64,000 nt of DNA from Hymenobacter perfusus. GTDB taxonomy: Bacteria; Bacteroidota; Bacteroidia; Cytophagales; Hymenobacteraceae. Within the stretch, counting starts at the first letter, position 1; every line of letters starts with the position of its first letter. The notes below the pieces were generated by a model, which was not told where the DNA came from, made no database searches, and worked only from the letters and a program-made list of their open reading frames with translations. Below, piece by piece: positions 18,156 to 27,470 of the stretch. The translations under genes were made by a program, and so were the position numbers. Location: contig NZ_RWIU01000002.1 in assembly GCF_003944765.1 (NCBI RefSeq), forward strand, positions 248,001-312,000, read 5' to 3'.

Positions 18156-18231
18156 GATTCTGTAGCTCAGCTGGTAGAGCAATACACTTTTAATGTATGG
18201 GTCCTGGGTTCGAATCCCAGCGGGATCACCA
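18156..18231 (+). tRNA. tRNA-Lys (anticodon TTT)
   Basis: A complete 76-nt cloverleaf with encoded CCA. The acceptor is GATTCTG/CGGGATC with two G-T pairs, the D arm is GCTC-AGCTGGTA-GAGC, and the anticodon stem ATACA/TGTAT holds loop CTTTTAA with anticodon TTT at 18189-18191. The T arm is CTGGG-TTCGAAT-CCCAG. A terminator follows directly. Confidence 0.97.
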
Positions 18232-18266
18232 AAAACCCTCACTGCGTAGCGTAGTGAGGGTTTTTT
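18232..18266 (+). terminator. Terminator of tRNA-Lys
   Basis: AAAACCCTCACTGCG pairs with CGTAGTGAGGGTTTT around a TAG loop with one G-T pair. A T6 run follows, immediately after the tRNA CCA. Confidence 0.9.
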
Positions 18267-18368
18267 ATTTACTGGGTCCGAGAGTAGGATTGCTGGTTAT
18301 GCGTAAGCCACCAATAAACAGCGCAGTTTTTATTTGGATAGGTCCGAGAATAGGATTGCGGCTGATGC
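18260..18368. repeat. Two 43-bp imperfect direct repeats downstream of tRNA-Lys
   Basis: The copies lie at 18260-18302 and 18326-18368. Both read G-T-run-ATTT, then GGTCCGAGA[GA]TAGGATTGC, then G-x-T[TG]ATGC. The unit spacing is 66 bp. No coding potential is seen. They sit at the point where ordinary gene spacing gives way to the AT-rich island. Confidence 0.7.
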
Positions 18369-18702: not shown

Positions 18703-19107
18703 TTAGGATAAAAACCGCCGCCGTAATGCAGGAGAGGGGATTCGGCAGGCGTCCTCGCGCCCCAGAATGCGGTAGCGGTTACGGGCGACCAGCTCATACC
18801 CCCAGTCGCGCAGCGGGCGGGGTATGTAACGCAGCAGCGCAGTATAGCGCCAGTTGGAGCGTAGTTGCTGGAGAATAAGCAAAACGGCTTCGGAGCGCTG
18901 ATACACCTGCCCATCCCGCAGCAGGTAAATAGTAGAGGGGAGGGTGTTCAGGGGAAGTACCCGCCCGTGCTGGGCCAGCAGCTTACGGGCGGGTTCCGCC
19001 TGCAATGAGACAAAGGTAAAACGTTCTGCCGGGTCACGGTCAATCACGAAATTGACGAACCCGTCGCACAAATTGCAGACACCATCAAAAAGTATTACAT
19101 CGTTCAT
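18703..19107 (-). CDS. DCC family thiol-disulfide oxidoreductase (DUF393)
   Basis: 134 residues from MNDVILFDGVCNLC; the extended frame to 19230 runs through AT-rich noncoding sequence. The hallmark DGVCNLCDG (residues 9-17, a CxxC pair) and the later VSLQAEPARKLL, YLLRDGQVYQRSEAVLLILQQL and RYRILGREDACRIP segments define the DCC1-like family. Its members have a thioredoxin-like fold and presumably reduce or exchange disulfides in the cytosol. DCC proteins are often encoded beside or fused to HTTM membrane proteins. An HTTM gene lies 2.8 kb away on the other strand, beyond three small exported proteins. A functional tie is inferred. Confidence 0.9.
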   Translation of the reverse strand: MNDVILFDGVCNLCDGFVNFVIDRDPAERFTFVSLQAEPARKLLAQHGRVLPLNTLPSTIYLLRDGQVYQRSEAVLLILQQLRSNWRYTALLRYIPRPLRDWGYELVARNRYRILGREDACRIPSPALRRRFLS

Positions 19108-19929
19108 GTTAAATTTTTTAATGTAAAGATTTGGCGTTGCGCTCAGGTTTGCATGCGTAGGGCTTATCAGGTATGCTATTAACTGATAAATACGCGTAAT
19201 TAAAAATAATAAAACGAATGTCGCTAGCAAACAGGTGTCAATACATCATTGATGCCTGTTTTAGGTGTTTGGTAGTTGATATTAGATTTGATGGATAGTA
19301 GAAATAAAATAATATTATCTCTGTTCGCTTGACTGCTATGTAGAATAGTTGTTATTTGGCCTCAGTAGATCACTGCTCGCTTATCCATCAGGCAACTGCT
19401 CACACCGGCGGGTCTGATAACCTTTGGCGTATCTCGCGCCCTCTGCTCCCTATTCATGCTGGTACGCCCGGAGATGCTCTCCCTGGGCTAATGATGCCCT
19501 GAGTTCAGGAATTACTGTGAGTAAGTCTATGGGTACGCCCGTAGTTTCCAGATTTCTGCACCAGGCAGCTCCGGTTTTCGATCTGGTCCGCGCTCTACTA
19601 CCCACCTTATTTCTTCCGCACCTGCTGCGCGGCTGTTTAAAAAAAGCAACTGCGTATTACGCGCCACTAGTACATTTTTCACTTCGCATGAAAATGCGAA
19701 TCGGAAGACTATTGCCTGAATATTATGGCAATAAATAAAAGAAATAAAGTGTTGATTCTGCGGTTAAATACGCAGTAGAAAGAGTCTGTAGCGTTTTCTG
19801 GAACAAGTGCTTATTTCCGTGTGAATAAGTGCGCTGAACTGTCATGTCCCTGCCCTGCGAAAACAGATTTCACATAATAACCCTCCTGGTCAATTGTCCA
19901 TTTTTCAATCCTTAAAGCCCTTCAAGAAG
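19108..19929. other. Long AT-rich intergenic region upstream of the small exported protein genes
   Basis: 822 bp with far lower G+C than the flanks and no credible gene. It holds an imperfect 13-bp stem (19230-19242 with 19248-19260) followed by TTTTA, and a 7-bp stem with a GAAA tetraloop (TTCGCAT at 19683-19689, ATGCGAA at 19694-19700). It should contain the promoters of the DCC gene and of the peptide cluster. I could not fix a -7 box. Confidence 0.5.
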
Positions 19930-20286
19930 ATGAAAAAAGTACGCAATATGAAACGGCCGTTTGCAGTAGCAATACTGAGTCTGACGTTGTTCCAGTTTTC
20001 GGCGCAGAGCGCGGTTGCCGTGGGCACTTACAGCAACGCCAGAACCTACGTTTCGGCCAATGAGCAGCAGATGCAGGCCGCTATTGGCTGGGCCGCTATT
20101 GCCGCTGGTGTAGCCGTAGTGGGAGCGGCCGTGGGGGCCGTGGTGGGGGCCTATGAAGTAGGCACTATTGTGGGCCATGCCGCCCACGACCTGTTTGGTA
20201 AGCAAACGGAAGTTTCCTATGATTTTGAGCGGGCCAATTATGCGGCCAGCGACTTCTCGGAATTCGACCGAACCGCTGCTAACTGA
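19930..20286 (+). CDS. Small Sec-exported protein 1 with glycine-zipper hydrophobic core
   Basis: 118 residues from MKKVRNMKRP; a second ATG at 19948 is also possible. A signal peptide ends after residue 30 (SAVA-VG), followed by GTYSNARTY. A long hydrophobic stretch (about 50-83) carries regularly spaced glycines at 65, 69, 73, 78 and 82. A polar tail ends ASDFSEFDRTAAN. There are no cysteines in the mature part. It shares the cleavage-site position, the G[ST]Y[ST] start and the [SND]DF[ST]xFD tail with the next two genes, so the three are paralogues. I do not recognise a named family. Beside DUF5819- and HTTM-type genes it may be the precursor of an exported membrane-active peptide; that is inference. 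Confidence 0.8.
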   Translation: MKKVRNMKRPFAVAILSLTLFQFSAQSAVAVGTYSNARTYVSANEQQMQAAIGWAAIAAGVAVVGAAVGAVVGAYEVGTIVGHAAHDLFGKQTEVSYDFERANYAASDFSEFDRTAAN

Positions 20287-20329
20287 TTTTTTCTCACGCA
20301 CAATCAAGCTTAAAAACAACTTGCTGACC

Positions 20330-20665
20330 ATGAAAAAATTACACAAAACCCCACGTGTTATCGCCACTTGCCTGCTGATGTTGCTGCTGCTCACGGCTTC
20401 TCTCCAGAACGCCGTAGCCTTCGGGAGTTACACGCACATAAGTGCTCCAAACGCCACGCAAAGCCAGATGGCACCCGCAGTGTTCCCGGCCGTGGCTGCC
20501 GTAGCCTTTGGCGTGGTGGTAGTGGGAGCCTTTGCTTACGGCGTATACACTGGCTACACGGAAGCATCCAGAGGCAAGGAAGCAGAGGTAATCAGTTCCG
20601 TTTCCCTGGACATGTACCAGAGTGATGATTTTTCCCGGTTCGACCTGAATCAAGCCGCTATTTAG
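20330..20665 (+). CDS. Small Sec-exported protein 2, paralogue of protein 1
   Basis: 111 residues. The signal peptide (MKKLHKTPRVIATCLLMLLL) cleaves after residue 30 (NAVA-FG), followed by FGSYTHIS. A hydrophobic core lies at about 48-76 with glycines at 61, 66, 71 and 75. A charged linker (EASRGKEAEV) leads to the tail QSDDFSRFDLNQAAI. It lies 43 bp after protein 1 and is probably cotranscribed. There is no cysteine after the signal peptide. The family is not recognised. Confidence 0.8.
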   Translation: MKKLHKTPRVIATCLLMLLLLTASLQNAVAFGSYTHISAPNATQSQMAPAVFPAVAAVAFGVVVVGAFAYGVYTGYTEASRGKEAEVISSVSLDMYQSDDFSRFDLNQAAI

Positions 20666-20825
20666 CCGGCATCCTCCCAACAAACTTTCCTGACCAGGAG
20701 GGTTTTGGGCAGGTAGCCAGCAGTATCGCCTTACTGCCGCATTCCTTATTTCTGCGCATAGCATCAACGCATACGTCCCGACCCGGGCTGGCGCACTTGT
20801 TCCTCTCTTCTATACGACTTCTTCC

Positions 20826-21167
20826 ATGAAACAGACTTCCTCCCTGTCCCGTCTTGCTGCCAGTGGCCTGCTGACGGTTGCCTTGCTAACCATTTCGGCC
20901 CGGAGCACCGTGGCCCTCGGCAGCTACAGCCAGGCCTCAGGCACTGCCCAGGCCCCAACGGCTACTTCCTGGCTTTCCCTGCTGAGTATCGGTACGTTCC
21001 AGGCTCACAACGCCTATCCTGGGCCGGGTGATACTACGGCCATGCAATACATAATCGGGCCTCTGCAGGCGGCCACCTTCACCATAGGCGGCACTCAACC
21101 CACCATCCCTGATAACTACAGCAGCAACGACTTTACGGAGTTCGACCACGAAGCCGCCGCAAGGTAA
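20826..21167 (+). CDS. Small Sec-exported protein 3, diverged paralogue
   Basis: 113 residues. The signal peptide cleaves after residue 30 (STVA-LG), followed by LGSYSQAS. The middle is less hydrophobic than in proteins 1 and 2: WLSLLSIGTF near 49-58, a PGPGDTT turn, then YIIGPLQAATFTIGG. The C-terminus SSNDFTEFDHEAAAR keeps the shared tail motif. It sits 50 bp before the DUF5819-type gene. The loss of the continuous glycine-rich core may mean a different role, for example partner or immunity; this is untested. Confidence 0.78.
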   Translation: MKQTSSLSRLAASGLLTVALLTISARSTVALGSYSQASGTAQAPTATSWLSLLSIGTFQAHNAYPGPGDTTAMQYIIGPLQAATFTIGGTQPTIPDNYSSNDFTEFDHEAAAR

Positions 21168-21217
21168 CTCCAGGCTCCGGCTCTGGTACTTTATCCGTTC
21201 ATTTCCAGCCCTGCTCT

Positions 21218-21928
21218 ATGAAACTGACTTTCCTGGCCCGCTTGTTTCCCCGGCGTTACTGGTGGTTACTGCACGCGGTACTGGTTACGCTGCTGGTCGG
21301 CCACTTCTCGGTGGTGGCATTCAGCATGCTGCCGGCTAACCCGCTCAGTCACCAGTACAAATATCAGTTGCAGGCGTACATGAATCCGTGGTTTTCACAA
21401 ACCTGGAATCTGTTTGCGCCCAACCCCATTGCCTCCAACCAGCGGCTGCTGTTCCAGTACGAAATTTACCAGAAGGGCCAGGCGCAGCGCACCGGCTGGG
21501 TTGATGTGGTTGAGCCGCTCACTACCCTTAAAAAGGGCAGCTACTGGTCGCCGGTGCAGCGAATACTCAAGCACATTTCGGCCTCTACCAACGAGGTAAT
21601 CGAGGTGCAAAACAAGGCCATCAAATTTGCGGCCCAGCAGGATACGCTGGCCAAGGATACGGTTAAGACCAGGCGGTTTCTGCGGGCCGTTGTGAGCAGC
21701 TCGCCGGGGCATCGGGCCATTCTGCAGTATTCGCGGCATACGTTTCGCCGCCTGGCCGCCACCAACCCGGCTTGGGCCAGTCCCGATTCGGTGCGCGTGG
21801 TGTACCAGGTGCTCAATCAGGAGTTTCCCCGCTTCTCCAAACGGGAGCTGGATTACTTCGATGAGCGCAACTCTCGCTACTCTCACCTGACCAGTGAGCC
21901 TCACCGCCTGTATCTGGTGCGCCACTGA
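21218..21928 (+). CDS. DUF5819 family protein (SdpA-like position)
   Basis: 236 residues. One membrane helix lies at about 16-38, followed by a soluble domain. The signature NPWFSQTWNLFAPNP (56-70) and LLFQYEIYQKGQ match the DUF5819 family as I know it; proteins of that type are commonly encoded with HTTM proteins. The rest (residues 75-236) is soluble with several RHTFRRLA-like basic patches, and no catalytic motif is evident. In Bacillus, SdpA and the HTTM protein SdpB together convert the exported SdpC precursor into the SDP toxin. The arrangement here (small exported proteins, this gene, HTTM gene) parallels that system. The gene is 50 bp after protein 3 and 27 bp before the HTTM gene. 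Confidence 0.75.
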   Translation: MKLTFLARLFPRRYWWLLHAVLVTLLVGHFSVVAFSMLPANPLSHQYKYQLQAYMNPWFSQTWNLFAPNPIASNQRLLFQYEIYQKGQAQRTGWVDVVEPLTTLKKGSYWSPVQRILKHISASTNEVIEVQNKAIKFAAQQDTLAKDTVKTRRFLRAVVSSSPGHRAILQYSRHTFRRLAATNPAWASPDSVRVVYQVLNQEFPRFSKRELDYFDERNSRYSHLTSEPHRLYLVRH

Positions 21929-21955
21929 TGTTCCGTCACCTAATTCCTTCCTCCC

Positions 21956-22894
21956 ATGCTTCCCACTACTGATTCGCTGCGCAATTCCATCGGGCTGTCG
22001 GCATTCCGGTGCCTGTTGGCCGGGCTGGTCATGAAAAACATGATTTTCTACCTCCCCATGGCCGATAATCTGCTGGGAGCCGAAGCCATTGTTGATTACG
22101 ACACGTATCTGGGCACCATGTACGCGCAGGGCCTGCACTACTTCATCTACCCGTTTCACGCGCCCTACGCGCCGCAGCTGTTTGTCATTCTCACCTTCTG
22201 CGTCGCCTTTCTGCTGTTCTTCGGCATTTTTGGCCGGATAACGGCCCTGGTACTCTGGCTGCTGCTGGTGCTGTTCAAGCTGCGCAACGGGTTTATTCTT
22301 GATGGTTCCGACAACGTGATTGAGGTGACCCTGCCTTTCCTGATTCTGGCCGACGCGTACCGCTACAACACGCTCAGCTCCACTACGGCCGCCCCCAAAA
22401 CGGGTACGCTGGCCGAAATGGGACGACTGGTGATGCGCTACGCGTCGCTGGCGTTACTGATTCAGGTCTGCTTCGTGTACTTTTTCACCGCCCTGGCCAA
22501 GTTGCAGGGTGATTTGTGGCTCAATGGCACGGCCACTTACTACACAATGCGGGTCGACGAGTTCCGGCAAACCGACTGGAATATTGCCCTGACCCAGAAC
22601 CACTATTTCGTGGTTCTGAGCACGTATTTCACCATTCTCTGGGAGCTTTCTTTTGCCTTCCTGATCTGGTTCCGCAAAACCCGCTGGGTGGTGATAGTAG
22701 GCGGCTTTCTGCTACATGTGGGCATCTGGTACTTCATGCGGATTGACAATTTCTCCTGGATTATGATTGGCTCCTACGCCATGTTCATCACCAACCGTGA
22801 CTACGTGCGGCTGCTGGCTTATGTGCGGCAACTGGTAGGGCGGCAGAGCCGCTCCCGGGAGCTTGCGCCGGCTGCCGGCCAGCTTACCACCTGA
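21956..22894 (+). CDS. HTTM domain membrane protein (SdpB-like)
   Basis: 312 residues with about seven hydrophobic segments. Features of the HTTM family (horizontally transferred transmembrane domain, related to vitamin K-dependent gamma-carboxylase and to SdpB) are the N-terminal LSAFRCLLAGLVMKNMIFYL, the central LVLFKLRNGFILDGSDNV, then VCFVYFFTALAKLQGDLWLNGTA, and a C-terminal block with LHVGIWYFMRIDNFSW. It would act in the inner membrane. SdpB in Bacillus is needed to mature the SDP killing peptide. The gene follows the DUF5819-type gene by 27 bp. Its last codons form the left arm of a 22-bp perfect hairpin. Confidence 0.85.
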   Translation: MLPTTDSLRNSIGLSAFRCLLAGLVMKNMIFYLPMADNLLGAEAIVDYDTYLGTMYAQGLHYFIYPFHAPYAPQLFVILTFCVAFLLFFGIFGRITALVLWLLLVLFKLRNGFILDGSDNVIEVTLPFLILADAYRYNTLSSTTAAPKTGTLAEMGRLVMRYASLALLIQVCFVYFFTALAKLQGDLWLNGTATYYTMRVDEFRQTDWNIALTQNHYFVVLSTYFTILWELSFAFLIWFRKTRWVVIVGGFLLHVGIWYFMRIDNFSWIMIGSYAMFITNRDYVRLLAYVRQLVGRQSRSRELAPAAGQLTT

Positions 22895-22943
22895 AGCAGG
22901 CATGCGGGGAGCGGGCCGTCACCCGCATGCCTGCTTCAGGTGG
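22887..22943 (+). terminator. Very strong hairpin overlapping the HTTM stop codon
   Basis: A perfect 22-bp inverted repeat (22887-22908 with 22922-22943) has a 13-nt loop. The left arm includes the stop codon of the HTTM gene. There is no T run after the stem, so it may be a U-independent terminator, a 3'-end stabiliser or a processing site. It divides the peptide/HTTM group from the next gene. Confidence 0.6.
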
Positions 22944-23058
22944 TGCCGGAGTGGGCCTCGGCCGCTTCTTTTCTGTCCTGTCTGGCTACCTGCTGCACAG
23001 TACCTGCCAGCCAATATTGCGCGGCGCGGGCCGCAACCGTTCCTAACCTCCCCATTCG

Positions 23059-23604
23059 ATGAAAAAAAACCTGCTACTCCCTTTGTTTACCTGGACGCTG
23101 TTCACCACGCTGGTGTATCTGGTGGTGCTGTACACGGTGCTCTACGGCTGGATTGATAACGAAACCGGCCTTTTTCCGGCCGACAAAATGATTCTGCTCC
23201 CGGTGCTGCCCGGTCTGCTTATGCTGCTGATAGAAGGCATTATGCATGCCATTCCCATTTATCAGCACCGTCTGGAAGCGTTCCGAACGGGGGAAAGCCC
23301 CGCCCGGTGGTTCTGGCTGGTACCGCTCCTCTCGCTCGGGGTGCTGGTGTTTTGCGCGGGCCTCGACCTGCTTTACTGCCAGCTGGTGGATGCCACTATT
23401 CCGCATTCGTACGCCGAGACAGTAGCACAGATTTCGGTTAACAGCGGCAGCGTGCCGAAGGACTCGGTTGTGCGCTCGTTCGCGCAGCTGCCTTTCTTCG
23501 CTCAGAATATCTTTCTCAATACCATTACCATTGTGCTGGGTAACTTCTTAGCCTTGCTGGTGGGCCGCAGTATCGCCAAACCATTGGCGGTAAAGCTTAC
23601 TTAG
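23059..23604 (+). CDS. DUF4199-like four-helix membrane protein
   Basis: 181 residues with four predicted membrane helices at about 8-30, 46-64, 84-105 and 150-172. The extramembrane loop between helices 3 and 4 (LLYCQLVDATIPHSY to VVRSFAQLPFF) and the final GNFLALLVGRSIAKP resemble the Bacteroidota DUF4199 family. Its function is unknown. It lies 164 bp after the HTTM gene, beyond the strong hairpin, so it may have its own promoter. A multi-helix membrane protein at this place could protect the producer, as SdpI does in Bacillus, but there is no sequence evidence for that. Confidence 0.7.
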   Translation: MKKNLLLPLFTWTLFTTLVYLVVLYTVLYGWIDNETGLFPADKMILLPVLPGLLMLLIEGIMHAIPIYQHRLEAFRTGESPARWFWLVPLLSLGVLVFCAGLDLLYCQLVDATIPHSYAETVAQISVNSGSVPKDSVVRSFAQLPFFAQNIFLNTITIVLGNFLALLVGRSIAKPLAVKLT

Positions 23605-23884
23605 CCCGCTGCCATTACCGGAGCTAGTTCCTACGTGCCCGATTATGTGCTGACCAAACATAGGATACGGGAAGCAACTTTGGTAAGCAGCGCAAAGAAC
23701 CTGAGTACAGCCCACCGCCGCATGGCAGCAGGAAGCTGCCAGGTAGCCCCGACCAGTAAGGCAGTGCCGATGGTGGGTAGAATAGTCAATAGAATGAAGG
23801 ATGTGCTGAGTTGAATACCGCGTAGCTGGTCAAAAAAAGTGGCTTACAGAGAATATAAAACGGCCCAATGTGGCGGGGAATAGT

Positions 23885-24070
23885 AACCCAAGTTGCGGAG
23901 CAGGTTCCGGTCCGGCGGCTTTTTCAGCCGTCGGACCGGTCGTAGGGCGAACGAGGTGGCGTGGCCGAAAAGACGTGCCGTATGCGCTTACGGCGACCGG
24001 TCCGGCGGCTGAAAAAAGCCGCCGGACCGGAACCCAGGCCAGTCGTCCTGCATCCTCCACAACTTGGGTT
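23885..24070. mobile_element. MITE-like palindromic element (186 bp)
   Basis: The terminal inverted repeats are AACCCAAGTTGCGG (23885-23898) and CCACAACTTGGGTT (24057-24070), 13 of 14 matching. Just inside the left end and near the right end lie two long hairpins built on CCGGTCCGGCGGCT and its complement; the right-hand one is perfect over 14 bp with a GAAAAA loop. No coding capacity. The ends match the TIR of the transposase remnant that starts 4 bp further on (AACCTAAGTTGCGG), so the element was probably mobilised by that family. The 280 bp before it (23605-23884) hold nothing recognisable. Confidence 0.7.
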
Positions 24071-24074
24071 ATCT

Positions 24075-24480
24075 AACCTAAGTTGCGGAAGGTTATAGGA
24101 CGCACCGGTCCAGTGCCTGTACGAAGACGAATAGTCCAATGCTGAGCGCAAAGCCTGCGGCGGACGTGGTACGAAACTTCTTCGGGAAGCGGGCTGTATG
24201 CTGGCTGAAGCAGGTTTCGCTGCCGTGACGGGAATGCTGAATGAGAAACGAGTCGATGACGTAGCGGGCTCCCGTGTGCAGGGCCTGGAGCACCTAGTCG
24301 AAGGTGGCGAATAACTTGTTCAGCACGTCTTTGAGCGGGTGCAACCGTTGGAAAGCACCACTCTCGTCCAGCTCACGCTGCCCCCAATGCGCCTGCATAT
24401 ACTGCCGAGCTTGGTCCATGTTGCCGCCAAAGTAAAGTGCCTCAATCAGCGCCGTCGTGGCAACCTACATGTCGGACAGG
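24075..24480 (-). mobile_element. Decayed IS982-family insertion sequence (transposase pseudogene)
   Basis: Minus-strand reading from about 24465 gives TALIEALYFGGNMDQARQYM, then RLHPLKDVLNKLFATF, an in-frame stop near 24293, then VLQALHTGARYVIDSF, directly joined to ETCFSQHTARFPKKF and AAGFALSIGLFVFVQALDR before a stop. These match N-terminal, central (yxIDSxP) and C-terminal blocks of IS982-type transposases. The roughly 150 residues that should separate VIDSF from ETCFSQ are gone. The reading ends within about 20 bp of the inverted repeat AACCTAAGTTGCGG (24075-24088), as expected for an IS end. The element is inactive. Confidence 0.7.
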
Positions 24481-24520: not shown

Positions 24521-24661
24521 GGACTAAACACATTTGAAAAACGGTCCTGCGTTTCCAGCGTCTGGAGCCACTTCAGGTTTTGGCAACCAGAAATGGCTCA
24601 CACCCAAAATGCCTTTTGCGTGCCTGTTGAATGGTCGAGCATTTTCAAATGCGTTTAGTCT
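24521..24661. mobile_element. Second MITE-like element (141 bp)
   Basis: The ends are 20-bp inverted repeats matching at 18 positions: GGACTAAACACATTTGAAAA (24521-24540) and TTTTCAAATGCGTTTAGTCT (24642-24661). The interior is noncoding. The TIR is unlike that of the neighbouring IS982-type remnant, so it belongs to another family. No clear target duplication was seen. Confidence 0.55.
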
Positions 24662-24707: not shown

Positions 24708-27470
24708 ATGGTTACCCGCTTCCTGGTTCGTTTTTGGTTGTGTTGCAGTTTGTACGCCGGCATTGGTGGGCTGGCGGGCTGCACGCAGGCCGCGCCGAAG
24801 CGGCAGTACACCATCGGCTTTTCGCAGTGTACCAACGGCGACGCCTGGCGGCAGGCCATGCTGGCTGGCATGCAGAAGGAACTGAGCTTCCACCCCGAGG
24901 TGCGCTTCCGCATGAAGGATGCCCGGTACAGCTCGGCTTTGCAGCAGCAGCAGATCCGGGAGTTTCTGCGGGAAGGCATCGACCTGCTCATTGTATCGGC
25001 CAACGAAACCGAGCCGGTGACGCCCATTGTGGAGGAGGCCTACAACCGGGGCATTCCGGTGGTGATTCTGGACCGGCGCACCACCTCCAAGCTCTACACC
25101 GCCTACGTGGGTGGTAACAACCTGGAGGTGGGCCAGACGGCGGCCCGCTACGCCGCCGGCCTGCTGGGCGGGCGGGGCCAGGTGCTGGAAGTGCTGGGCG
25201 CGCCCGGCTCCAGTCCCGCCATCGACCGGCACCGGGGCTTCGCGCAGGCCCTGGCCGAGTATCCGGGGATGCAGCTGGTGGCCCGGGTGAACAGCAACTG
25301 GGAGCGGCCCTCGGTGCTGACGCAACTGCCCGCCGTGCTGCGGCAGCACCCCGAAGTTGACCTCATTTTTGCCCACAACGACCGGCTGGCGCTGGGGGCC
25401 TACCAGGTGTGTAAGCAGCTGGGCCGGGAGCGGCAGGTGCGCATTGTGGGCGTGGATGGTCTGCCGGGGCCGCACGGCGGTATTCAGCTGGTGCAGGATG
25501 GCATCATCAACTCCACGCTGCTGTATTCGCCGGGCGGGGAGGAGGCCATCCGCACGGCCATGCGCATTTTGCAGCACCAGCCCTTCGAGAAGGAAAACCC
25601 GCTCAGCACGATGGTTATCGACTCGACCAACGTGCTGACGATGAAGCTGCAGACCGAAAAGCTCAGCAGTCAGCAGCAGGATATCCGGCGGCAGCAGCGG
25701 CTGTTGCAGCAGCAGCGGGCCACGTACGCCAGTCAGCAGACGGTATTGTACGTGCTGGCGGCGGCCTTGCTGGGCGCGGCCGGGCTGGGCGTGCTGGTGT
25801 GGCGGGCCTTCCGGGCCAACCGGCGCATTACGCGGCGGCTGGCCTTGCAGAACGAGGAAATCAGGGCGCAGCGCAACCAGATTCAGGAGTTTGCCGAGCA
25901 GGCCCGGGTGGAAACCGAGGCCAAGCTGCGCTTCTTCACCAACTTCAGCCACGAGCTGCGCACCCCGCTCACCCTCATTCTGGGGCCGGTGGAGGAAATG
26001 CTTACCAGCGGCCCGAACCTGCCCGCCGCCCAGCGCCACGACCTGAGCCTGGTGCGTCGCAATGCCCAGCGGCTGCTGCAACTGGTCAATCAGCTCATGG
26101 ATTTCCGCAAGATTGACGTGGGCAAGATGCCGGTGCGCGCTACCGAGGGCAACCTGGTGGTCTTCGTGCGCGAGATTATGGACGTGTTTGAGCGGCCGGC
26201 CCGGCAGCGCGGTATCCGTCTCCGGTTTCTGCCTGCCGAGCCGGCCCTGTTGCTCTGGTTCGATGCCAACGTGCTTGATAAGGTGTTCTTCAACCTGCTC
26301 AGCAACTCCCTCAAATTCACGCCCGAAGGTGGCCAGATTACCGTGAGCATGCAGCGCGTGCCCGCTGAAAACGCCGTGCGCGTGAGCGTGGAGGACACCG
26401 GCCGGGGCATTTCGGAGCAGGACCGGGCCCACATTTTCGAGTGGTTTTACCAGGGGCAGCAGTCGGTGGCGAAGGGCTCGGGCATGGGGTTGGCGCTGGC
26501 TCTGGGCCTCACCCGGCTGCACCAAGGCACGCTTTCGTTTACCAGTCAGCCCGGCCGGGGCAGCACGTTTGTGGTCACGCTGCCGCTGGAACTGCCCCAG
26601 GAACTGAAATCGGCGGAAGCCGTAGTGCCACTCAACCTGGGCTTCTCGGTGGAAGAGGACCTGCTGCCCGCCCTGCGCCCCGAGCCCGAGGCGGCCGTGA
26701 GCGGGAGTGAAGCCCTGGTTTTGGTCATTGAGGACAATCCCGAAGTCAACGCCTTTCTGGTACAGAAGCTGCGACCCCACTTTCAGGTTAGCGCGGCGTT
26801 TGATGGAGCCCGGGGCCTGGAGCTGGCCGCCGACAGCATCCCCGACCTGATTATCTGCGACGTGATGCTGCCCGAGCTGAGCGGCCTGGAAGTGGTGGCC
26901 CGCTTGAAAAGCGACTGGCGCACCTCCCACATTCCGGTGGTGCTGCTTACGGCCCGGGGCGCTTCGGAGCAGCAGGTGGAAGGCGTGCAGGCCGGCGCCG
27001 ATTTGTACCTGACCAAGCCTTTCAACCCCACCTTCCTGCTGGAAAGCGTGCGGACGCTGCTCAGCAACCGCGAGAAGCAGCGGGAGCATTTCCGCCGGGA
27101 GCTGTCGGTGCAGACGGCCACCGTGGCCCCGCAGCGCGTGGACCAGAAGTTCCTGGCCGACCTCACCGCCATTGTGGAAGCCAACCTCTCGCGCTCCGAG
27201 CTGAACGTGGAGGACGTGGCCCGCAGCCTGGGCATCTCGCGGGTGCAGCTCTACCGCAAGGTGAAGGCCGTGCTGGGCACCGGCGTCACGGATTTCATCC
27301 AGGGCATCCGCCTCACCAAGGCCCGCCAGCTGCTGCTCTCCGACGAGCTGACCATTGCCGAAGTGGCCTACCAGCTGGGCTTCTCTTCGCCCTCGTACTT
27401 CTCCACCAGCTTCAAGGCCCGCTACCAGGTGTCGCCCTCCGAGTTCCGGGCTTTGCATACCACGGCGTAA
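24708..27470 (+). CDS. Hybrid two-component sensor/regulator with periplasmic sugar-binding domain (fructan locus)
   Basis: 920 residues. After a signal with a possible lipobox (GLAGC), residues 33-310 form a periplasmic-binding-protein fold of the ribose/LacI type (YTIGFSQCTNGDAWRQAM, then IPVVILDRR and FAHNDRLALGAY). A membrane helix at about 346-366 follows, then a histidine kinase with His415 in NFSHELRTPL, an N box (NLLSNSLKFTPEGG) and G boxes (DTGRGIS, GSGMGLAL). A receiver has Asp718 in ICDVMLPELSG. A C-terminal AraC-type DNA-binding domain includes VEDVARSLGISRVQLYRKV and IAEVAYQLGFSSPSYF. This domain order matches BT1754 of Bacteroides thetaiotaomicron, which binds fructose and activates a fructan locus. 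The neighbouring SusCD, GH32, porter and fructokinase genes fit the same role. A GAAAC/GTTTC mini-hairpin sits 5 bp before the start. Confidence 0.93.
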   Translation: MVTRFLVRFWLCCSLYAGIGGLAGCTQAAPKRQYTIGFSQCTNGDAWRQAMLAGMQKELSFHPEVRFRMKDARYSSALQQQQIREFLREGIDLLIVSANETEPVTPIVEEAYNRGIPVVILDRRTTSKLYTAYVGGNNLEVGQTAARYAAGLLGGRGQVLEVLGAPGSSPAIDRHRGFAQALAEYPGMQLVARVNSNWERPSVLTQLPAVLRQHPEVDLIFAHNDRLALGAYQVCKQLGRERQVRIVGVDGLPGPHGGIQLVQDGIINSTLLYSPGGEEAIRTAMRILQHQPFEKENPLSTMVIDSTNVLTMKLQTEKLSSQQQDIRRQQRLLQQQRATYASQQTVLYVLAAALLGAAGLGVLVWRAFRANRRITRRLALQNEEIRAQRNQIQEFAEQARVETEAKLRFFTNFSHELRTPLTLILGPVEEMLTSGPNLPAAQRHDLSLVRRNAQRLLQLVNQLMDFRKIDVGKMPVRATEGNLVVFVREIMDVFERPARQRGIRLRFLPAEPALLLWFDANVLDKVFFNLLSNSLKFTPEGGQITVSMQRVPAENAVRVSVEDTGRGISEQDRAHIFEWFYQGQQSVAKGSGMGLALALGLTRLHQGTLSFTSQPGRGSTFVVTLPLELPQELKSAEAVVPLNLGFSVEEDLLPALRPEPEAAVSGSEALVLVIEDNPEVNAFLVQKLRPHFQVSAAFDGARGLELAADSIPDLIICDVMLPELSGLEVVARLKSDWRTSHIPVVLLTARGASEQQVEGVQAGADLYLTKPFNPTFLLESVRTLLSNREKQREHFRRELSVQTATVAPQRVDQKFLADLTAIVEANLSRSELNVEDVARSLGISRVQLYRKVKAVLGTGVTDFIQGIRLTKARQLLLSDELTIAEVAYQLGFSSPSYFSTSFKARYQVSPSEFRALHTTA

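Follow-up and report, generated by a model that had tools for sequence, protein, structure and literature searches.

What do three small, apparently exported proteins of Hymenobacter perfusus do, given that they are encoded upstream of a DUF5819 gene and an HTTM membrane protein gene? These genes lie between positions 18703 and 23604 of the window, the 64,000-nucleotide stretch of contig NZ_RWIU01000002.1 (positions 248,001 to 312,000 of the forward strand) that was analyzed here. The first-pass annotation of this cassette had drawn a parallel with the SDP system of Bacillus subtilis, for which the available part of PMC6818787 reports that processing of SdpC requires SdpA and SdpB, without giving a mechanism. 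With a probability of about 0.6, the cassette makes SDP-like antibacterial peptides from tail-tagged precursors, using DUF5819 and an HTTM protein related to SdpB. What the annotation had observed was confirmed, and its interpretation is partly supported by the results described below.

The three precursors of the window are paralogous (BLASTP E 5.5e-12 to 7.3e-06) and signal-peptide-like, as had been annotated, and have no above-cut-off match in Pfam or NCBIfam. Similar peptides, two to five per genome and 28 in total, are encoded upstream of DUF5819 in 11 Hymenobacter loci. They share one layout: the start is basic, a hydrophobic segment comes next and is followed by an invariant Gly, and a variable core then leads to a C-terminal Phe-Asp tail with 0–8 residues after it. 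The tail, which is absent from the earlier description, conforms to [DE]F[STA]xFD in 28/28 peptides and to the stricter DF[ST]xFD in 26/28. A truncated row in one of the alignments, L050:10965-11255, was replaced in a later version. For the 341 peptide pairs with less than 50% overall identity, the mean tail identity is 0.60 versus 0.36 for shuffled sequences. The same type of comparison gives 0.39 versus 0.26 for the signal part and a mean of 0.30 versus 0.25 for the core.

All signal-peptide-like open reading frames (ORFs) of 70–130 residues were included in a count of tails near to and far from DUF5819, since the first listing of the peptides had used the tail pattern as a filter. In Hymenobacter, 28 of the 31 such ORFs located up to 2.3 kb upstream of DUF5819 end in FD, compared with 1 of the 77 elsewhere in the same loci (Fisher 2.1e-21). 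A protein-database search using a profile that includes the tail, in which the 7992 best candidates were scored, provided 21 relatives. Those with names are all from Hymenobacter, and the tail appears at the end of 14/14 inspected sequences.

The cassette recurs in related genomes. The gene at 21218 was identified as DUF5819, as first annotated, with a PF19136 score of 75.1 bits against a gathering cut-off of 27.1, and its product shares 97% identity with a protein labelled Hymenobacter swuensis. With the Pfam model, DUF5819 was detected in 11 of the 200 family genomes, that of the window included, and an HTTM orthologue is present in the same 11 (E 5.4e-99 or better). The next-best HTTM matches in the 200 genomes have E values of 6e-14 or worse and are mostly frames of ~500 residues. 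Peptides, DUF5819, HTTM, and a homologue of the protein encoded at 23059 occur together in 11/11 fetched loci, which bears out the expected co-occurrence of the small proteins with HTTM. This recurrence argues against a chance arrangement; the 11 loci are not all independent, as one comes from the genome of the window itself and another from a near-identical genome. A twelfth, distant DUF5819-HTTM pair in the genus (genome G053, L069:7660-9106, E 7.5e-05) was obtained with a wider profile in 120 genomes. Of 395 Bacteroidota genomes, only 4 contain a DUF5819 match, and two of these belong to the window's genus.

The arrangement was also found in a second phylum. The term Bacillales is used loosely here for the order to which Bacillus chungangensis and its relatives belong, in which 11 of 348 genomes contain DUF5819. 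Fifteen distinct Bacillales loci, two of them in one Virgibacillus genome, were collected from this survey and from a scan of named genomes, of whose 558 confirmed loci the best 80, from Hymenobacter, Bacillota, and many actinobacteria, were used. The pairing of DUF5819 with HTTM is constant: an HTTM frame directly follows DUF5819 in 10/10 further Bacillales loci and in 82 of the 83 loci L067-L149 (the best 80 of 558 and three distant Bacteroidota loci), the sole exception, L098, ending at a contig edge. Predicted exported peptides with a Gly/Ala-rich stretch were identified by eye beside the pair in 15/15 Bacillales loci, ending in FD in 12 and in FGR in 3. By script, tagged peptides were detected in 14/15, and L098, where the start was read differently by eye, is a likely miss.

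Of the small ORFs with a signal peptide that lie up to 2.3 kb upstream of DUF5819 in Bacillales, 16 of 24 end in FD or FGR, against 1 of 61 elsewhere (1.4e-10); FGR joined the tag definition after the three loci had been seen, and FD alone gives 12/24 near and 1/61 far. When the Hymenobacter and Bacillales peptide profiles were compared with hhalign, only the last 13 columns, which are the tail, could be aligned (80%, E 1.4e-05), a comparison that is not independent because the rows were picked with knowledge of the tail. The HTTM proteins of the three FGR loci group in a single clade (support 98/99), and the tag type follows the HTTM clade, for which vertical descent of both is as good an explanation as pairing. 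Two other features were seen by eye in these lineages. A transglutaminase-like gene follows HTTM or DCC in three Bacillales loci (L088:8596-9792, L093:8587-9792, and L090:9543-10451). In the Thermoactinomycetaceae loci L077, L080, and L083, which contain no tagged peptide, DUF5819-HTTM is located beside an opposite-strand ORF of 410–422 residues with a signal-like start.

The 21956 protein was identified as HTTM, in agreement with the first-pass annotation, with a PF05090 score of 34.1 bits (gathering cut-off 27.7). The SdpB model TIGR04033 gives 60.6 bits (E 1.8e-16) for this protein, which is below its cut-off of 178.4, and matches 25/25 scanned HTTM rows at E ≤ 0.001. Alignments of SdpA (10 sequences) and SdpB (8 sequences) were built from the SdpABC loci of the 348-genome set. 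The HTTM and SdpB profiles align with hhalign over 258 columns (99.7%, E 4e-25), and on this evidence the homology of HTTM with SdpB extends along the whole protein. The DUF5819 and SdpA profiles align over 61 columns (74%, E 2.8e-05), a region that contains a hydrophobic helix and the motif P-x-N-P ... Q-x-W-x-x-F; with a Hymenobacter-only profile the value is 47.7%. A relationship of DUF5819 to SdpA is thus suggested by the profiles and not proven. The SdpA model TIGR04034 does not match the DUF5819 protein at E ≤ 1. SdpA was detected in 10/348 and DUF5819 in 11/348 of the Bacillus-order genomes, and none carries both. The AlphaFold2 model of DUF5819 has a pLDDT (predicted local distance difference test) of 90.4. 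A PDB sequence search with DUF5819 provided nothing convincing (ubiquitin-conjugating enzymes, E 0.25 or worse). The name DUF5819 was not encountered in the literature searched, a search that did not extend to bioRxiv.

The only significant PDB fold match of HTTM is GGCX, the vitamin K carboxylase that acts in blood clotting, whose membrane-domain fold is reproduced in the predicted fold. GGCX was also found in a PDB sequence search with a wider HTTM profile, and nothing was found with a Hymenobacter-only profile. Lys182 of HTTM aligns with Lys218, the base of GGCX, and is Lys in 32 of the 38 DUF5819-linked HTTM rows. The equivalents of Trp223 and Phe299 in the quinone pocket are invariant in 46/46 HTTM rows. 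The Glu pocket of GGCX (Asn158/Asn159/His160) is replaced, mostly by DG(G/S)DN among the relatives, and the window protein has G117 and S118 at the positions of Asn159 and His160. HTTM also differs from GGCX in that the large lumenal propeptide-binding part is missing. HTTM is likely the modifying enzyme of the cassette. A literature search for a connection between bacterial HTTM or SdpB and vitamin K, again with bioRxiv outside its range, provided only a GGCX review.

A DCC gene is linked to HTTM in several lineages. It is present in 8/11 Hymenobacter loci, 12/15 Bacillales DUF5819 loci (fused to HTTM in 6), 7/8 Thermoactinomycetaceae loci (3 fused to HTTM) among the matches listed, and 6/10 SdpABC loci (L182-L186 and L188). 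The background rate is 4/19 in shorter loci of other HTTM proteins. DCC was found in 0/3 distant Bacteroidota loci and, among the matches listed, in 0/59 actinobacterial loci. One Thermoleophilaceae locus, L146, was left out of the group counts for both DCC and tagged peptides. DCC is likely a redox partner of HTTM. The linkage of DCC to SdpABC is not mentioned in the available parts of the cited SDP literature.

SdpABC and YitPOM of B. subtilis, which produce the SDP and YIT toxins, resemble the cassette in four respects: HTTM is homologous to SdpB, the partner DUF5819 has short motif similarity to SdpA, the precursors combine a signal peptide with a hydrophobic region that varies between homologues, and DCC is found at SdpABC loci. 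SdpC homologues have differing hydrophobic C-terminal domains, and the immunity conferred by SdpI and YitQ is specific, according to the available part of PMC6818787. The cassette differs from SdpABC in that its HTTM scores under the SdpB cut-off and in that it contains neither an SdpA match nor an SdpI (Pfam) match.

The favored sequence of events, in which SDP-like antibacterial peptides are produced, would begin with export of the precursors by Sec. Their tails would then act as recognition elements and hold them at a DUF5819-HTTM complex at the outer face of the inner membrane, with DUF5819 holding the substrate, a role that SdpA would play in SDP maturation. HTTM may modify the docked peptide by a quinone-driven step (menaquinol chemistry), and DCC may support this redox step. 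The precursors would be trimmed, and the freed hydrophobic core would disturb the membranes of competitors and kill them, with the 23059 protein protecting the producer as a putative immunity protein. A bolder form of this proposal, which must be regarded as doubtful, is that a vitamin K-type enzyme matures exported killing peptides. In this form SdpB/HTTM would burn menaquinol to generate a strong base at Lys182 that acts on a peptide docked by its Phe-Asp tail, with DUF5819/SdpA as the clamp and DCC as the redox partner, and the same chemistry would serve SDP, YIT, and the tail-tagged peptides in two phyla. The GGCX fold match hints at a chemistry for a maturation step that was reported without a mechanism. 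The maturation question is now testable, given a conserved fold, base, partial quinone pocket, tail motif, partner protein, and DCC gene in two phyla. DUF5819 may further serve as a marker for exported peptides that have escaped annotation and fall outside the curated families tested.

Several results weigh against the production of SDP-like peptides by this cassette. Its precursors come first and in tandem, whereas SdpC comes last, and the claim in the first-pass annotation that the gene order is that of SDP is therefore wrong; an SdpC-like ORF is visible by position in 6/10 SdpABC loci and follows SdpB in these. The parallel with SDP holds for HTTM over its full length, for DUF5819 only over the 61 columns to which its similarity to SdpA is limited, and not for gene order. 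No SdpC-family NCBIfam match was found for the three small proteins at E ≤ 1, and no FD tail was seen in the SdpC proteins, which were called by position. The mature SDP peptide contains a Cys pair, whereas none of the 28 Hymenobacter peptides does, one of them having a single Cys after residue 30, in line with the annotated lack of the Cys pair. A fold search of the PDB with the DUF5819 model gave nothing at E ≤ 0.001 (a second look at the PDB was for HTTM only), and with neither a sequence nor a fold match no fold is claimed for it. Gln replaces Lys182 in 6 of the 38 DUF5819-linked HTTM rows, so that a Lys base is not required in every HTTM member and strict GGCX chemistry is weakened. The replacement of the quinone-pocket residues Phe286 and Phe294 of GGCX by Leu and Met in the window HTTM weakens it slightly further. 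Sigma-70-like sites occur at chance level, and a Bacteroidota promoter pattern has 0 matches within the window; as no promoter is supported, the operon is proposed from spacing alone. Tagged peptides were found within 2.3 kb upstream in 0/8 Thermoactinomycetaceae and 0/59 actinobacterial loci among the matches listed, and none were seen in the three distant Bacteroidota loci (L069 included), which were left out of the group counts of tagged peptides. The DUF5819-HTTM pair can therefore occur without tagged peptides. As a separate observation, the tails at the six Gln-182 loci (L088, L093, L161, L162, L163, and L168) read by eye as [DEN]L[DE]xxFD, unlike those at the Lys loci.

The 67 loci without a tagged peptide, and the DCC gene in most of the Thermoactinomycetaceae loci, would also suit a general quinone-linked redox module composed of DUF5819, HTTM, and DCC, in which the peptides, confined to two lineages, would be accessory regulators or subunits. 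This explanation is improbable, as tagged peptides accompany DUF5819-HTTM in 25/26 Hymenobacter and Bacillales loci by script, and SdpB, the nearest characterized relative, is needed for peptide maturation in the available part of PMC6818787. It is also improbable that the matured peptides are kin-sensed signals (pheromones), with maturation unchanged and the 23059 protein as a receptor or unrelated. The evidence from tail and cassette suits any matured exported peptide, and the N-terminal part of one Bacillales peptide weakly matches a model of Phr pheromones (E 0.00067, 19.8 of 35 bits). ORFs similar to the sensor-kinase-like gene at 24708-27470 are present in 5/10 other Hymenobacter loci (L042, L044, L045, L048, and L049; 22–28% identity, E 6e-13 to 5e-06), but their position varies, and genes of this kind are common. 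The long, hydrophobic, Gly-rich cores and the several diverged paralogues per locus are more like membrane-active peptides. In the least probable explanation, HTTM and DUF5819 insert or modify the small proteins as components of the membrane or cell surface (pilin-like or a membrane stress protein), with no secreted product. In its favor are weak matches of precursor 1 to TrbC/VirB2 pilin (E 0.014), PsaL (E 0.0096), and PdsO (E 6e-05, 22.8 of 152.2 bits), which are below cut-off and were rejected as composition matches, and the DUF4134 name on 3/21 UniRef relatives. A structural role is not suggested by the patchy distribution (11/200), the diverged copies in tandem, or the homology of HTTM to SdpB.

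SDP-like systems have been recorded in Bacillus and also Brevibacterium (available part of PMC5719810), and an SdpABC-like system is located on a mobile element of 'Candidatus Ornithobacterium hominis', another member of the Bacteroidota (PMC6421346). The latter is likened to the cassette by description only, and the passage of PMC6421346 that was available names neither DUF5819 nor a tail. Relative to these recorded systems, the cassette would represent a new form of SDP-type peptide maturation, one whose substrates carry a tail tag. An HTTM protein is likewise found in a peptide maturation cluster of the linaridins (crdG, corynaridin), where its mechanism is described as unclear in the available part of PMC9927463. 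Linaridins have a different class of precursor and are set beside the cassette by description only. The coordinates of all features are collected in Table 1.

Table 1. Features of the cassette and its flanks in window coordinates.
Feature	Position	Strand	Evidence or remark
DCC1-like thiol-disulfide oxidoreductase, DGVCNLC motif	18703..19107	-	PF04134, 102.1 bits (cut-off 27.8)
Precursor 1, 118 residues: predicted signal peptide, hydrophobic core rich in Gly and Ala, tail DFSEFD	19930..20286	+	
Phe-Asp tail DFSEFD of precursor 1	20251..20268	+	Near-invariant alignment columns D108, F109, F112, D113
Precursor 2, 111 residues: layout as precursor 1, tail DFSRFD	20330..20665	+	
Phe-Asp tail DFSRFD of precursor 2	20627..20644	+	Sequence reading and alignment
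Precursor 3, 113 residues: layout as precursor 1, tail DFTEFD	20826..21167	+	
Phe-Asp tail DFTEFD of precursor 3	21129..21146	+	Sequence reading and alignment
DUF5819 protein: single N-terminal hydrophobic helix and domain predicted outside; SdpA-like position and motif region	21218..21928	+	PF19136, AlphaFold2, hhalign
SdpB-like HTTM membrane protein, predicted vitamin K carboxylase fold	21956..22894	+	PF05090, sub-threshold TIGR04033, hhalign, GGCX fold
Lys182 codon of HTTM, aligned with GGCX active base Lys218	22499..22501	+	
His254 codon of HTTM, aligned with GGCX His287	22715..22717	+	Invariant in 46/46 rows
Perfect 23-bp inverted repeat with 13-base loop, spanning the HTTM stop codon	22886..22944	+	
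Hydrophobic, multi-helix (by eye) protein; candidate immunity protein	23059..23604	+	Downstream homologue in 11/11 Hymenobacter loci; weak DUF4199 via homologues
tRNA-Lys	18156-18231		Upstream flank of cassette
Hybrid sensor kinase-like gene (by eye)	24708-27470		Downstream flank of cassette

The 23059 protein had been annotated as DUF4199-like. The window protein itself has no Pfam match at E ≤ 1, and the assignment stands only through 4 of the 11 homologues, which match DUF4199 weakly (best E 3.6e-05). SdpI (Pfam) is matched by none of the seven cassette proteins. The gaps from precursor 1 through HTTM are 43, 160, 50, and 27 bases, and 164 bases separate HTTM from the 23059 gene. The inverted repeat at the end of HTTM, which is not directly followed by a T-run, may be a terminator or attenuator that separates the 23059 gene from HTTM. 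The divergent position of the DCC gene was annotated correctly. ORF starts were chosen by rule and not by evidence; for DCC, an ATG start is present at 19107, and the alternative TTG start at 19230 is therefore probably too long.

A link between the cassette and the upstream tRNA-Lys was considered and dropped, as the tRNA is found only at the window's own locus among the 11 Hymenobacter loci. Two direct 43-base copies, 77% alike, are located just past this tRNA at 18260-18368. Downstream of the cassette, the repeats at 23884-24089 and 24522-24660, which comprise inverted repeats nested in one another and an inverted pair of 19 bp, are perhaps remnants of a mobile element.

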